Below are positions 2,927 through 8,367 of a stretch of 64,000 nt of DNA, in pieces. Under the pieces are notes generated by a model. It worked only from the letters and a program-made list of their open reading frames with translations, ran no database searches and was not told the origin of the DNA. The position numbers were made by a program, and so were the translations under genes. Location: positions 1,910,501 to 1,974,500 of the forward strand of contig NZ_CP086063.1 of NCBI RefSeq assembly GCF_020783315.1. Direction: 5' to 3'. Each line of letters starts with the position of its first letter. Within the stretch, counting starts at the first letter, position 1. Origin of the DNA: Ferruginibacter lapsinanis. GTDB taxonomy: Bacteria > Bacteroidota > Bacteroidia > Chitinophagales > Chitinophagaceae.

Positions 2927-3015
2927 TGGTACGGAAGTCCATTCTTGAATTTCCGTAGCTCTTCATCAGTTAAAAAGGATAACTACAAATAACATATTTG
3001 TTAACTTTTTTAAAG

Positions 3016-4044
3016 ATGGATATGAAGAGAATTAGTATTTTGTTTTGGCTTTATAAGTCAAAAAAGAACAATCAAGGAGAATCCCCGCTTTACTTACGTA
3101 TTACCGTAGGGGGAAAAAAAGTAGAAACTGCTACTGGTTATTTTATTAAAGCTTCTGAATGGGACTCAAACAAGAAGCTTGTCAAGGGTAAGAGTGATAA
3201 TAGTATTCTTATCAACAATTACATTACTGTAAGCCGAAGTAAAATTCTTCAAATTGAGAACGAATTTACTTTGGATAATTCCAATTGCATTACTGCGGAT
3301 TTAGTTAAACAACGTTTTTTGGGTTTATCAACTCAAAGGAAAACTCTATTGGAGGTATTTGACTATCATAATGATAAAGTCAAAGCTCAAGTGGGGAATG
3401 GATATTCTATTGGGACGTATAAACAATATGAAGTCTCCAAAGGAAAATTAAAAAGCTTTCTGAAGTATTCCAGTGGAGAAGAAGATGTATCACTAGATTC
3501 ATTATCTCACAAGTTTGTAACCGATTTTGAAACTTATTTAAAGAACGTTGATGGGCTGAGTTCTAATTCAGCAATGAAAAAGATTACTCAGTTGAAGACT
3601 GTTGTTCATCTTGCTCTAGCGAATGAATGGACTACAAAAAATCCATTCGGGAATTTTAAATGTAGTTATAAAAATCCTAAGAGAGAGGTACTAACAAATG
3701 AGGAATTGCAAACTTTATCAACTAAAGACTTTGGTTGTGATAGACTCAATTATGTGAGAGATATATTTTTGTTTTGTTGTTATACAGGTTTAAGGTATAG
3801 CGATGTAGCGAAATTAACTCCTGCGAATACCATTGTTGGGATTGATGGGAAAAAATGGCTTACAGTTGATACTACTAAGACTGACGAACGTTGTAATATA
3901 CCATTGTTTGAACAAGCCGAAATACTTATTGATAAGTATAAGGATAATCCAGTGTGTTTAAATAGAGGTGTTATGTTCCCAGTAAACAGCTGTATGTCGT
4001 CAAATCAAAGTGAACTTTCTCTTAGAGAGTGTTTCGTGATTTAA
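3016..4044 (+). pseudogene. Tyrosine recombinase (phage-type integrase), 3'-truncated
   Basis: The typical Bacteroidota integrase N-terminus MKRISILFWLYKSKKN is present, followed by an arm-binding region, a SAM-like core-binding domain (about residues 115-215) and the start of the catalytic domain with YTGLRYSDV (first catalytic Arg) and TTKT (Lys). It stops about 80 residues early: the HxxR box and the Tyr nucleophile are absent. The last residues after SCMSSNQ no longer resemble the family and coincide with the start of IS-associated sequence, so the gene was cut by the IS element. The frame can be read from a TTG at 2998, but the ATG at 3016 or 3022 matches family starts better. The protein is almost certainly inactive. 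Confidence 0.85.
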
Positions 4045-4085
4045 AGATACTTTTTATTTTTAGTTTTATAGTGTACAGATTAAAA

Positions 4086-5060
4086 TTAAGATGCTATTTT
4101 TTGTCTTAAATAATTTTGCCTTCTTCTTTGAAGCGTTAGCATTTTTATTCTTTGCCTGTATTTAAAAATCTCTTCTTGCCTTCCGTAATAAACATCTGCC
4201 GGTGTGACATTCCCAAGAGACTCATGATAGCGTTCATGATTATAGTAGTGTACAAAAGCCGTTAATGATGCTTCCAGTTCTTCAGGGCAGTAGTAATTAT
4301 CCAACTTAACAACGTTTTTCATTGACCGATGATAACGTTCAATTTTCCCTTGTGTTTGCGGATGATTGGGCCTGCCATGTAAAAGTTTCATTTTCTTGTT
4401 TTGTAAAAAGATTTTGAGTTCTGATGCGATATAGCAAGCTCCATTGTCCGATAATAACTTTGGCCTGAACTCATTTGGCAACTCTGAAGCCTCCAGGGCT
4501 CTATTAACTGTTCGTTGTACATCCTCTGTTTTCATTGTCTTACAGAGTTCCCAATGAACAATAAAACGGCTGTAATCATCCAGTACTGTACTCAGATAAT
4601 ACCATCCCCATCCCAATATCTTGAAGTAAGTAAAATCTGTTTGCCACATTTCATGAACAAAGCAGGTCTTTTGACTAAATTCATTTCCTGCTGCTAACAA
4701 AATATGTGAAGGGCTGGTGATTAACCCTTTGGCCTTCAAAATCCGGTACACGCTGGATTCTGATATGAATATTCCTTTTACATCACTGAGTTTACAGGAT
4801 AATTCTCTGGGTGATAACTCGGCATATTCCAGCGCAATCTCCACTACAAGATTCTTTTCAGACTGTGGTATCGTATTCCAGCGTTGCCGGGTAGCACGTT
4901 TTGATTCAAGGCCATTAGCACCCTTATCCAAATAAGCTTTGTACCAATTGTAAAACGTACTCTTGTTGATCCCCAACTGTACCAAAGTTCTGTTTACTCC
5001 CAGTTCTGAACGTTCAACCAATTGAATGATTTCCTCCTTTTCTGCTACTGATAATCTCAT
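4086..5060 (-). CDS. IS3-family transposase OrfB (DDE integrase core)
   Basis: 324 residues. An N-terminal helix-turn-helix region (IIQLVERSELGVNRTLVQLG, then STFYNWYKAY) precedes an HTH_21-like segment and the rve integrase core. Catalytic acidic residues are visible as WQTDFTYF (first D), LLSDNGACY (second D) and QGKIERYHRS (E), the D-D-35-E pattern. The frame is open upstream of its ATG into the end of orfA, so the functional product is probably an OrfAB fusion made by frameshifting at an A8 run. It appears intact. Encoded antisense to the integrase it interrupts. Confidence 0.9.
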   Translation of the reverse strand: MRLSVAEKEEIIQLVERSELGVNRTLVQLGINKSTFYNWYKAYLDKGANGLESKRATRQRWNTIPQSEKNLVVEIALEYAELSPRELSCKLSDVKGIFISESSVYRILKAKGLITSPSHILLAAGNEFSQKTCFVHEMWQTDFTYFKILGWGWYYLSTVLDDYSRFIVHWELCKTMKTEDVQRTVNRALEASELPNEFRPKLLSDNGACYIASELKIFLQNKKMKLLHGRPNHPQTQGKIERYHRSMKNVVKLDNYYCPEELEASLTAFVHYYNHERYHESLGNVTPADVYYGRQEEIFKYRQRIKMLTLQRRRQNYLRQKIAS

Positions 5061-5080
5061 ACGACGTTGATATTTTTCGC

Positions 5081-5434
5081 TTACTCCAAGATGGTTAAGC
5101 TTTTTTTTACAATGTCATAGCGGAGCATCAGATCAGCTACCATTTCTTTTAACCTTTGATTCTCTTTACGTAGTTCAGTTACTTCGTCACTAGTAGCTTC
5201 ACGAGTAGTATCACCATTAAGGCGTTTCTTACCTGCTTCCATGAACTCTTTATTCCATTTGTAAAACAATGCCTGGTTAATCCCATGTTTACGACATATC
5301 TCTGCGGTAGAGCTTTCACCTCGTAGTGCTTCCATAACTATAAGGATCTTTTGTTCGGAGGTGAACAATCGCCTAGTCCTGCGACGGATGTCTTTAATGA
5401 AGTTTTCTGTGGACTGTTTTTGTTTCTTTTCCAT
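5081..5434 (-). CDS. IS3-family transposase OrfA (HTH_Tnp_1)
   Basis: 117 residues. An N-terminal helix-turn-helix (FTSEQKILIVMEALRG ... AEICRKHGINQALFYKWNKEF) is followed by a leucine-zipper-like coiled coil (ELRKENQRLKEMVADLMLR), the standard OrfA arrangement for DNA binding and multimerisation. Near its 3' end the coding strand has GTA-AAA-AAA-AGC (A8, complement of T8 at 5101-5108), a slippery run where a -1 shift enters the orfB frame with no intervening stop. It lies 20 bp upstream of the orfB ATG. Confidence 0.9.
   Translation of the reverse strand: MEKKQKQSTENFIKDIRRRTRRLFTSEQKILIVMEALRGESSTAEICRKHGINQALFYKWNKEFMEAGKKRLNGDTTREATSDEVTELRKENQRLKEMVADLMLRYDIVKKSLTILE
5101..5108 (-). promoter_or_regulatory. 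A8 slippery run, candidate -1 programmed frameshift site
   Basis: On the coding strand eight A residues sit 8 codons before the orfA stop. Reading after a -1 shift gives K-L-N-H-L-G-V-S-E-K-Y-Q-R-R and joins the orfB ATG in frame without a stop. IS3-family elements make their active transposase this way. Confidence 0.6.
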
Positions 5435-5504
5435 GTTATTCTATTTTAATGATGAACAATGGAAATACTCTCTAAAATTAACTTATTTTTAGTCCAGTTT
5501 TAGC

Positions 5505-5712
5505 TGACGATTTACATTGCTAGTGAAGTACAAAATCTAAAGCAAATTTTAACACATACAGATAAAACAATTAGTTCAATTATTAAAAATGGGAAAAATG
5601 AGTATATAAGTAAAAAAGAAAATGGTTTTAGTAGAGTTTTTCATAACTATTCAGACTCTCAAAATGGGTTTAAAAACTGGAAGGAAGAAATAGAGAAAGT
5701 GGTTTTGGCATA
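5505..5712 (+). pseudogene. 3' remnant of an unidentified gene beyond the IS element
   Basis: An open frame without a start, preceded by an in-frame stop near the IS edge, encodes about 65 residues including SEVQNLKQILTHTDKTISSI and ends FKNWKEEIEKVVLA before TAG at 5710-5712. Composition is Lys/Glu/Asn rich, like the island genes that follow. It reads as the C-terminus of a protein whose 5' part was lost when the IS inserted or deleted neighbouring DNA. I do not recognise the family. Confidence 0.45.
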
Positions 5713-5828: not shown

Positions 5829-6623
5829 ATGAGTTGGATAAGTAAATTTTTTCCTAAAATTGAGAGGTCTGATAATAAAGATGAAACAATTACTCAAGTA
5901 GAAAGAGCCTACAAAACTGAAGCATTGTTCGCAGGAATTGATTATGAATTTATTGATAAACTTTATTTTCATACTGCTGAATTAAAGGACATTTTTATTT
6001 ATCAACTCAATGAGATTTTGACAGTATTAAAAATATCTGAACAAACCAAAAGAGTTGAAACTACTCAATTGCTCACTGATTACATTACAAACAAGGAAAT
6101 TGAAATTCCTTTTTTGATTTACTTATTTAACTTTGAGACCTACTCAATTGAAATCGATAAGGTAAGTAATATTGAAATAAGCAAGAAAATTGCTTTTGCT
6201 AGCAATAAGGGGAAAGAAAAACTTAGTCATTATTATACTGGACTAAATGTTGCATCATACAATATCGAAAAAAAAATTGCAGCAGGGTATTTGGACTTTT
6301 TAGAAGAAGAAGAACTAATAAATAGAACATTATCTGATGAGCATTATGATTTTGCTAGAATTAGTGGTTTATTCTTATTAGGGCATGGATTTTTTGTTTC
6401 CAATAATATAGAAAAAATGGAGTACTATTTTAATATTATCAAGAAAGACAAATATGAATTGAGCAATATTACTGTTTCTGAATACTATAGAGCAATCGGA
6501 GAGGAATATTATAATGCTAAAATTTTAGAGAAATCCTTAATTTGGTTGAAAGACGGCATCACTCTCAATCCAAAATTGGGGGTCAAAAAGTTGATTCAAA
6601 AAATTGAAAATGAATTGATTTAA
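5829..6623 (+). CDS. Unknown protein, first gene of island cargo operon
   Basis: 264 residues, rich in Lys, Glu, Ile and Asn, with no signal peptide or membrane span. I do not recognise the family. The C-terminal third (about residues 170-262) is helical with a repeat-like pattern (SGLFLLGHGFF, SEYYRAIGEEYYNAKILEKS, LIWLKDGITLNP) that resembles TPR or SEL1-type helices, suggesting protein-protein contact. It starts at an ATG preceded by TTGAAAATTA. The stop is 3 nt before the MazG-like gene, so the two are cotranscribed. Given its partners, a role in sensing or scaffolding a defence response is an inference from context only. Confidence 0.7.
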   Translation: MSWISKFFPKIERSDNKDETITQVERAYKTEALFAGIDYEFIDKLYFHTAELKDIFIYQLNEILTVLKISEQTKRVETTQLLTDYITNKEIEIPFLIYLFNFETYSIEIDKVSNIEISKKIAFASNKGKEKLSHYYTGLNVASYNIEKKIAAGYLDFLEEEELINRTLSDEHYDFARISGLFLLGHGFFVSNNIEKMEYYFNIIKKDKYELSNITVSEYYRAIGEEYYNAKILEKSLIWLKDGITLNPKLGVKKLIQKIENELI

Positions 6624-6626
6624 ATT

Positions 6627-6977
6627 ATGGATAACTTAAAAATAAAACTGCGACAATTTGCAAAGGACAGAAATTGGGATCAATTCCATAGTCCCAAGAA
6701 TTTATCAATGGCTTTAGCTGGTGAAGTTGGTGAACTTATGGAAATCTTTCAATGGCTAAAAGAGGAAGAAACATTATTGGATAATATAAATGAAAAGAAT
6801 CTTTTGAGGGCTAAGGAAGAATTAGCAGACATATTTATTTATATTATTAGAATCGCAGATAAATTAGGTATTGACTTGATTAATGAAGCAAATAAAAAAA
6901 TTGATTTGAATTCAGTTAAATATCCTGTAGAACTATCAAAAGATAATGCTGTAAAATATAATAGAAGAGATGAGTAA
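6627..6977 (+). CDS. MazG-like nucleotide pyrophosphohydrolase (dCTPase-like)
   Basis: 116 residues, the size of stand-alone MazG-like / RS21-C6 (dCTP pyrophosphatase 1) proteins, which hydrolyse (d)NTPs to monophosphate and pyrophosphate. The four-helix metal-binding signature is intact: AGEVGELMEIFQW (E33, E36, E39) and AKEELADIFIYI (E64, E65, D68). An N-terminal FAKDRNWDQFHSPKNLSMAL also matches the dCTPase-type family. It lies 3 nt after the preceding stop and overlaps the next gene by 8 bp (6970-6977), indicating an operon. Such enzymes may clean up modified or damaged nucleotides. Next to a possible modification-dependent nuclease, a nucleotide-pool or alarm-nucleotide function in defence is plausible but unproven. 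Confidence 0.88.
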   Translation: MDNLKIKLRQFAKDRNWDQFHSPKNLSMALAGEVGELMEIFQWLKEEETLLDNINEKNLLRAKEELADIFIYIIRIADKLGIDLINEANKKIDLNSVKYPVELSKDNAVKYNRRDE

Positions 6978-7932
6978 AATAATATTACAACCTTCGGGAA
7001 ATAGGGATGCTCGTGAACATTATCTGGATACCATTGAAACCCCAGTTCCATTAACTCGTATACAACCCCATATAACAGCAGAAGAATTTCAAAATTTATC
7101 TCAGATATACCCTACGGGTTTATGTTATGTCTGGGGGGTGACACCTGGAGGTAATAATATTACAAAATGGGATAGAATTCAACGTGGAGATGTCACACTT
7201 TTTTCAAAAGAGGGAGCTATTTATGCTTCAGGAGTTACTACATTTAAATTACATAGTCGAAATTTAGCCTCAACTCTTTGGGGTTATAATAATAATGGTG
7301 AAACATGGGAATATGTTTACTTTCTAGAAGAAATTCGGAATTTAAATATTCCTTACATTGAATTTAATACAACAGTTGGGTATGCTAATAATTATGTTAT
7401 ACAAGGATTCGGTGTTTTGACTGAGGAACAAAGCAATTTAGTTTTTAATCGTTTTGATTTAGCTAGTGAAGTATTTATTCCAGTAGTAAATGCACCTACT
7501 TTTGAAAATTTAATTAATCTATTAGATAATCTTGAAGATACAGAAAGGGAAATTACTACAACAAGAAGATTAGAACAGGGGTACTTAAAAACATATTTGT
7601 TCGGGAATAATACAAATGGCACCTGTGCTTGTTGTAAGAAAGTTTACCCTGTTTCGTATTTAGTTACAGCACATATAAAGAAAAGGTCATATTGTACTCC
7701 ACAAGAAAAAAGAGATTTGAATGTTGTAATGCCTATGTGTAAGTTTGGATGTGATGAATTATTTGAAAAAGGTTACATAATAGTTGAAAATGGTCAATTT
7801 GTTAGCTTAAATAAAACACCGACTTCGTTAGAATTAGAAAACTACATTAACCAATTAACAGATACAGGTTGTACCTATTATAATCAAAATACTGTTGATT
7901 ATTTTAACTGGCATAAAGAACACCATAAGTAA
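6970..7932 (+). CDS. EVE/PUA-like plus HNH endonuclease, candidate modification-dependent restriction enzyme
   Basis: 320 residues. Residues about 25-150 look like a PUA/EVE-type base-reading domain (CYVWGVTP, then WDRIQRGDVTLF, then AIYASGVTTF). Residues about 200-275 form an HNH-type nuclease: CACCKK (Cys219-222), AHI with His235, DLNVVMPMC with Asn251 and Cys257, and CDELFEKGYI. The usual second His of the motif appears as Cys261-Asp262, so the third metal or base residue is atypical. EVE-HNH enzymes such as VcaM4I cut DNA with 5-methyl- or 5-hydroxymethylcytosine, which supports a type IV-like defence role here. Overlaps the MazG gene by 8 bp; last gene of the cargo operon. The EVE assignment is from pattern recognition and needs structural confirmation. 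Confidence 0.7.
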   Translation: MSKIILQPSGNRDAREHYLDTIETPVPLTRIQPHITAEEFQNLSQIYPTGLCYVWGVTPGGNNITKWDRIQRGDVTLFSKEGAIYASGVTTFKLHSRNLASTLWGYNNNGETWEYVYFLEEIRNLNIPYIEFNTTVGYANNYVIQGFGVLTEEQSNLVFNRFDLASEVFIPVVNAPTFENLINLLDNLEDTEREITTTRRLEQGYLKTYLFGNNTNGTCACCKKVYPVSYLVTAHIKKRSYCTPQEKRDLNVVMPMCKFGCDELFEKGYIIVENGQFVSLNKTPTSLELENYINQLTDTGCTYYNQNTVDYFNWHKEHHK

Positions 7933-8351: not shown

Positions 8352-8367
8352 TCCCAGCCAGTTCACA
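8352..8367 (+). repeat. Right attachment repeat (attR-like)
   Basis: TCCCAGCCAGTTCACA, identical to the tRNA-Lys 3' end at 2709-2724 and in direct orientation 5.6 kb away. Upstream bases differ from the tRNA, so the rest of the tRNA is not duplicated. The boundary is followed directly by a strong terminator that most likely belonged to the original tRNA-Lys. Confidence 0.85.

Follow-up and report, generated by a model that had tools for sequence, protein, structure and literature searches.

The window analysed here, a 64,000-nucleotide stretch of the genome of Ferruginibacter lapsinanis (contig NZ_CP086063.1, positions 1,910,501 to 1,974,500), contains a 5.6-kb island between 16-bp direct repeats at a tRNA-Lys gene, with orfA, mazG and an EVE-HNH nuclease gene as its cargo. 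The attL repeat (2709-2724) lies at the 3' end of the tRNA gene (2650-2723) and is matched exactly by attR (8352-8367), and no third copy of the repeat was found in the window. Inside the repeats are a tyrosine integrase gene (2998-4044, + strand; Pfam Phage_int_SAM_5, E 8.8e-18, and Arm-DNA-bind_5, E 1.4e-16), the catalytic part of which is curtailed at an IS element, and the genes of an IS3-type insertion sequence (4086-5434, - strand; HTH_Tnp_1 at 5081-5434 and rve at 4086-5060). The Phage_integrase match of the integrase covers positions 23-84 of 172 only (E 0.082), and because the catalytic domain is curtailed in this way, the island probably can no longer be moved by its own integrase. 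Between the IS3 genes and orfA, positions 5520-5711 look by eye like the 3' end of another gene (the frames tried contained stops), which suggests that a deletion associated with the IS took the end of the integrase gene with it.

The three cargo genes lie on the + strand: orfA (5829-6623), encoding a 264-aa protein of no known family; mazG (6627-6977), encoding a 116-aa all-alpha NTP pyrophosphatase of the DCTPP1/RS21-C6 type; and the gene for a 320-aa EVE/YTH-like-HNH endonuclease (6970-7932). A gap of 3 bp separates orfA from mazG, and mazG overlaps the nuclease gene by 8 bp. This arrangement on a mobile island had been proposed in the initial annotation, and the repeats at tRNA-Lys and the integrase bear it out. 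A Pfam search of the six main ORFs of the island (integrase, two IS3 genes, orfA, mazG and nuclease) found no methyltransferase.

The nuclease is composed of a reader (residues ~1-165), a linker (~165-200) and an HNH domain (~200-320). In the AF2 model (pLDDT 90.5) the reader adopts a PUA-superfamily fold, and the linker shows one short helix at 175-186 with low confidence (block means of 68-74 over residues 161-200). Foldseek and VIA comparisons matched the model to the N-domain of TgMcrB, to VcaM4I and to YTH domains. VcaM4I, an EVE-HNH enzyme (PDB 6yex), is the best Foldseek match and has the same reader-HNH domain order; its catalytic residues H224, D250 and D254 align with H235, D262 and E266 of the window nuclease (profile match, E 2.3e-11), which are kept in 65, 64 and 64 of 65 relatives, respectively. 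The two enzymes nevertheless share only 15-17% identity in structural alignments, the VcaM4I reader is missing from the sequence matches of the window reader (E up to 10), and five conserved cysteines in the HNH domain (219/222/242/257/261) set the window nuclease family apart from VcaM4I. By both sequence and fold, the nearest solved relative of the reader is the N-terminal YTH-type domain of TgMcrB from Thermococcus gammatolerans (6p0f/6p0g), which is fused to an McrB GTPase instead of an HNH domain. The initial annotation, which had named an N-terminal fold unlike EVE/PUA as grounds for refutation, was therefore right to expect an EVE/PUA-type reader joined to a VcaM4I-like HNH nuclease, although the likeness of the reader to the TgMcrB domain is greater than that to the EVE domain of VcaM4I.

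Three tryptophans of the reader (W55, W104 and W113) are conserved at the sequence level in 62-64 of 65 relatives. The TgMcrB domain is reported as a 6mA reader (PMC7897488, PMC12707154), and the title of PDB entry 6p0g has 'bound to m5C DNA'. Because the reader is closer to TgMcrB than to VcaM4I, 5mC or hmC is not established as the target. Taken together, the sequence and the predicted structure indicate that the nuclease is probably a modification-dependent endonuclease cutting modified (phage-like) DNA. Its sole match in PADLOC-DB 2.0.0 was to a generic model for HNH type II (E 1.7e-5).

The MazG-type enzyme recognized in the initial annotation can be refined to a DCTPP1-like one, since it matches PF12643 (E 9.9e-11) and its nearest PDB relative is dCTP pyrophosphatase 1 (DCTPP1, E 1.9e-23). 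It has the E-x-x-E and E-x-x-D metal sites of all-alpha NTP pyrophosphatases, and the metal ligands E33, E36, E65 and D68 as well as the pocket residues W17 and W43 are invariant in all 53 distinct MazG sequences, the window's included, with Y72 kept in 49 of the 53. W17, W43 and Y72 correspond to W47, W73 and Y102 of the DCTPP1 cytosine pocket. A docking study (PMC4491611) describes the dCTP pocket of DCTPP1 as His38, Trp47, Glu63, Glu66, Trp73, Glu95, Asp98 and Tyr102, and seven of these eight contact residues are kept in MazG. The exception is His38, said in that study to hydrogen-bond the cytosine oxygen: its position, which sits one residue past the printed MazG/DCTPP1 alignment, is occupied by Leu8 in the window and by L, I or V in 53/53 sequences. 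The same source reports that the Km of DCTPP1 is lower with 5-methyl-dCTP than with dCTP. MazG also differs from DCTPP1 in being an operon partner of nucleases.

The comparison was extended to ten more MazGs, of which L125-L131 and L133 have no EVE partner and L113 and L132 have one. Six of the eight lacking an EVE partner keep W17, W43, Y72 and all four metal ligands; the other two (L128 and L131) have F at positions 43 and 72, and the EVE-partnered MazG of L132 deviates at 43. The pocket residues, being kept without an EVE partner as well, are thus no signature of the pairing and point to dCTP-type chemistry, and the substrate of this DCTPP1-like enzyme would most likely be dCTP or C5-modified dCTP. 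MazG matched none of the families in PADLOC-DB 2.0.0. In L132, from Rhodococcus qingshengii, a 204-aa protein with two MazG-like stretches (3486-4097) precedes an EVE-domain protein.

The recurrence of the arrangement was examined with EVE-HNH relatives from genome contigs (80 of 117 retained from a scan that used HNH motifs as anchors), from plasmids (28 records matched, 16 examined, namely 15 fetched and L132) and from viral contigs (14 loci). Such relatives are rare, occurring in 4 of 394 genomes of the window's family and 5 of 395 of its phylum (own genome counted in both). In the set L002-L106, a non-random collection of 105 loci that includes near-copies and one record fetched twice and whose counts ignore shared descent, 61 have a MazG gene on the same strand no more than 0.7 kb away, upstream in 56 and downstream in 5, and this gene mostly overlaps or nears the nuclease start; no further MazG match was found in the 1.2 Mb of loci. 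MazG stands beside 60 of the 83 loci with EVE and HNH and beside the single one with EVE but no HNH (L004, EVE plus a McrB-like AAA_5 domain), and beside none of the 21 relatives in which no EVE was seen, three of which (L044, L062 and L071) are incomplete loci. After single-linkage clustering, the numbers of EVE+HNH clusters with and without MazG were 50/23 at 90% identity, 36/15 at 70% and 13/4 at 50%, versus 0/17, 0/14 and 0/5 for the clusters with no EVE seen. The hosts of the pair belong to Bacteroidota, Bacillota, Actinomycetota, Pseudomonadota, Verrucomicrobiota and candidate phyla. MazG and EVE-HNH distances are correlated (r 0.72 over 50 pairs; 0 of 2000 permutations as high), as is expected of genes inherited together. 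MazG of this type was found as a single copy in 26 of 294 family genomes, and it occurs in 21 of 296 phylum genomes (both counts take in the window's genome), and at such sparsity its adjacency to the nuclease is not due to chance.

The 8-bp overlap is kept in L027, L028 and L029, which are among the nearest pairs and have no orfA. Relatives of orfA were not found in loci L002-L106 (tblastn, E limit 0.5) or in viral contigs; they occur in 4 of 393 other family genomes, where the short flanks of the four loci gave no MazG match. The sole match of orfA in PADLOC-DB 2.0.0 was Csm3 at E 0.5. The initial view of orfA as a protein without a recognized family thus held, whereas its proposed role as partner in a conserved three-gene system is rejected, as these searches did not find orfA with the MazG/EVE-HNH pair elsewhere, and orfA is probably a passenger. 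As judged by sequence comparison, the conserved unit is the pair of a DCTPP1-like MazG and an EVE/YTH-like-HNH endonuclease, not the trio.

The pairing has exceptions, as 23 of the 83 EVE-HNH loci have no adjoining MazG. Among 18 genomes with such loci that were searched (of 19 put up), MazG was found elsewhere in 10 and not at all in 8, indicating that it is not obligatory; one of these eight (L034) has a MazG remnant upstream of EVE-HNH. All 19 pair-bearing genomes searched, of 20, were MazG-positive, as they must be, and nine had a second copy, whereas the island copy is the only one in the genome of the window. Beside the EVE-HNH gene of L034, on the opposite strand, 4603-5505 encodes what looks by eye like a second EVE-like protein (no Pfam match). 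L036 and L040, two EVE-HNH loci lacking an intact MazG, have proteins alike by eye, one encoded at 4461-5951 in L036 (497 aa, upstream, no Pfam match) and the other upstream of the EVE gene in L040 (485 aa).

Outside the EVE-HNH set, seven EVE proteins from archaea that have other effectors were examined (L117-L120, L122-L124); six are without MazG, and in L122 the match is weak, partial and on the opposite strand (E 1.1e-5). No EVE-McrB relatives of L004 were found in viral contigs, and a MazG search of these contigs returned three loci, all on contigs already known as EVE pairs. Around 36 clustered pair loci, the 126 neighbouring ORFs (two per side at most, those above 700 aa dropped) include, as raw counts for which no enrichment is claimed, five Schlafen-group-3 (SLFN-g3) helicases, four HNH, two GmrSD_N and two GIY-YIG proteins, as well as some PADLOC matches among the best 25 of 102 and of 101 families. 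Terminase genes lie ~1-4 kb from the locus in L007 and L018, with a portal gene in L007 and no MazG in L018, and these prophage settings would fit exclusion of competing phages.

We find it somewhat the likelier explanation that the pair forms a two-gene mobile antiviral module, in which a modification-dependent endonuclease is joined by a MazG acting at the nucleotide level on dCTP, possibly modified. This reading starts from the domains, the conserved catalytic and pocket residues, the recurrent operon coupling and the mobile and prophage settings computed here. From these we infer a modified base, a MazG substrate, a division of labour and an effect on phage as follows. MazG would be made just before the nuclease, probably through translational coupling, and would hydrolyse a free deoxynucleotide, most likely dCTP or C5-modified dCTP, thereby policing among precursors what the nuclease polices in the polymer. 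MazG may in this way bar modified nucleotides from the host chromosome so that the nuclease spares its own cell, or strip the phage of modified precursors, or both. Within the HNH set, the restriction of MazG to EVE-bearing members favours self-protection.

The same MazG also has other company. In the family, a SLFN-g3 helicase (PF09848) lies within 1.5 kb in 22 of 24 MazG loci (own locus and fragment L162 excluded), three of which also have EVE; one further locus has EVE only and one neither. In the phylum, the 21 MazG loci of 20 genomes have a helicase in 14 cases, EVE in one and none in six, so that for Bacteroidota in total the helicase adjoins MazG in 36 of 45 loci and the EVE gene does so less often. 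The helicase profile was built from nine family loci, and the nine helicases scanned matched PF09848 with E of 1e-43 to 1e-66. Plasmid records label such proteins DUF2075, which we take to be PF09848. Twelve of 25 plasmid records with a MazG match were examined (nine fetched plus L019, L020 and L023). The 13 MazG ORFs in L108-L133 have EVE in five cases (three of them genome loci, one being the window), a helicase in two and neither in six. From the helicase side, PF09848 is present in 14 of 147 family genomes, with MazG in the same short locus in eight of the 14; the genome of the window itself yielded no PF09848 match.

Both partners may occur together. In EVE loci, 16 of 63 MazG ORFs also have a helicase no more than 1.5 kb away, although four of these are pieces from a single record that is present twice; in nine loci of the Streptomyces type the helicase is divergent and 110-357 bp upstream, and in L138 (385-3296) EVE-HNH, MazG and the helicase are consecutive on one strand. 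L140 is among the loci whose helicase bears a GIY-YIG domain. On a 106-row MazG tree, built from few columns and with several long branches and unsettled bootstrap, the EVE label changes 13 times and the Schlafen label nine times, with at least eight and four of these changes, respectively, required by well-supported branches, so partner labels cluster yet change repeatedly. By these sequence-based criteria, MazG is an enzyme that switches between unrelated DNA-acting effectors. Two Hymenobacter plasmids have a different gene, TPR in L129 (1442-3803) and unnamed in L126 (434-1136), overlapping the MazG start, and neither EVE nor SLFN-g3 was detected in these stretches. In L144 and L149, the gene between MazG and a Schlafen-g3 helicase-type gene (1806-2891) encodes a protein of 362 aa that matches EVE weakly (E ~1e-4 and 2e-5); the L144 copy matched no Pfam family.

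As the usual neighbour of MazG in Bacteroidota, the helicase weakens a role tied to the base that the reader recognizes, and the sharing of MazG with helicases that mostly have no detected EVE gene nearby favours phage starvation or a broader role. A credible but less probable explanation is that MazG is the attacking arm, which would destroy dCTP or phage hm-dCTP on infection and stall replication while the adjoining nuclease or helicase attacks DNA. Defences that deplete dNTPs exist, and Nhi and AbiO are anti-phage helicase-type proteins. One enzyme swapping between unrelated DNA-acting partners across the tree would fit such depletion, as would the helicase beside MazG in 22/24 family and 14/21 phylum loci and the best PADLOC matches of the five helicases scanned, which are the Nhi and AbiO models over partial length (E 1e-9 to 6e-17). 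A constitutive dCTPase would however burden the host, and DCTPP1 is described as a house-cleaning enzyme (PMC7162842).

It is unlikely that MazG is instead a regulator or sensor, which would bind the nuclease, perhaps during its synthesis, and keep it inactive; the signal would be nucleotide binding, and catalysis would be secondary. Its place as the first gene in 56 of 61 pairs, mostly overlapping or near the nuclease start, would suit this role, and the HNH domain of VcaM4I is toxic alone and restrained by the linker (PMC7897488); but the four metal ligands are invariant in 53/53 sequences, as expected of an enzyme, 23 of 83 EVE-HNH genes do without MazG, and unrelated helicases are also accompanied by it. 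Least probable is that MazG and EVE-HNH are independent genes without joint function that gather on the same mobile elements. In favour of this, both are sparse accessory genes found on the island, plasmids and phage-like contigs, and the adjoining orfA looks like a passenger; against it, adjacency, order and strand are consistent over several phyla, the distances are correlated, and 0/21 relatives without a seen EVE have MazG.

A wider form of the two-gene module reading, which we put forward tentatively and consider rather doubtful, is that a DCTPP1-like MazG is the portable part of a class of immune systems whose partners are EVE-HNH nucleases, EVE-McrB-like GTPases and Nhi/AbiO-like Schlafen-g3 helicases, and which would exert a 'two-level base exclusion' by refusing modified bases both as precursors and in the polymer. 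In the helicase operons the same MazG is the preceding gene, with an effector unrelated to EVE-HNH. Judged by its sequence context, MazG seems to be a common component of antiviral systems in bacteria. SauUSI is a modification-dependent restriction enzyme. A comparable case comes from Streptococcus, in which homologues of SauUSI have a MutT as neighbour (Bell et al. 2020, PMC7641849); here another nucleotide pyrophosphohydrolase adjoins a modification-dependent restriction enzyme, albeit with a Nudix fold and another nuclease.

Whereas the parts are already known, the coupling of MazG with EVE-HNH appears new relative to the searchable open-licence PMC literature, in which no description of the pairing was found among the matches listed, nor a paper joining MazG with type IV restriction and defense system, or MazG with DUF2075. 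EVE-HNH and EVE-McrB are described in PMC7641849, in the text of which MazG does not occur, as it does not in PMC11090510 and PMC12839542, and the main text of the VcaM4I paper (PMC7897488) never mentions pyrophosph, operon, neighbo or genomic context. The module suspected in the initial annotation to be undescribed or barely described was thus not found in this literature or among the PADLOC systems, but it is a pair instead of a trio, and its MazG, shared with Schlafen-g3 helicases, is not specific to the nuclease.

The recurrence of a dNTP pyrophosphatase beside type IV enzymes suggests that modified nucleotides in free form, whether salvaged or phage-made, pose a genuine danger or serve as a target. 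According to PMC7897488, type IV restriction enzymes of this sort are encoded by lone genes with no methyltransferase to accompany them, and the host is safe because it does not carry the mark; if two-level base exclusion is true, such an enzyme would gain a route to self-protection. The EVE-HNH and Schlafen-g3 pairings also provide concrete partners for the MazG domain listed by DefensePredictor among predicted, unvalidated defence domains (PMC13092281). As putative modified-DNA endonucleases, the EVE-HNH family is a possible reagent. On the Peribacillus plasmid pSHB26 (L121, 2754-8389), one such nuclease is encoded together with a NucS-like protein and a 73-aa MazG piece, and two DNA cytosine methyltransferase genes lie ~1 kb off on the opposite strand, a neighbourhood awkward for a 5mC target.
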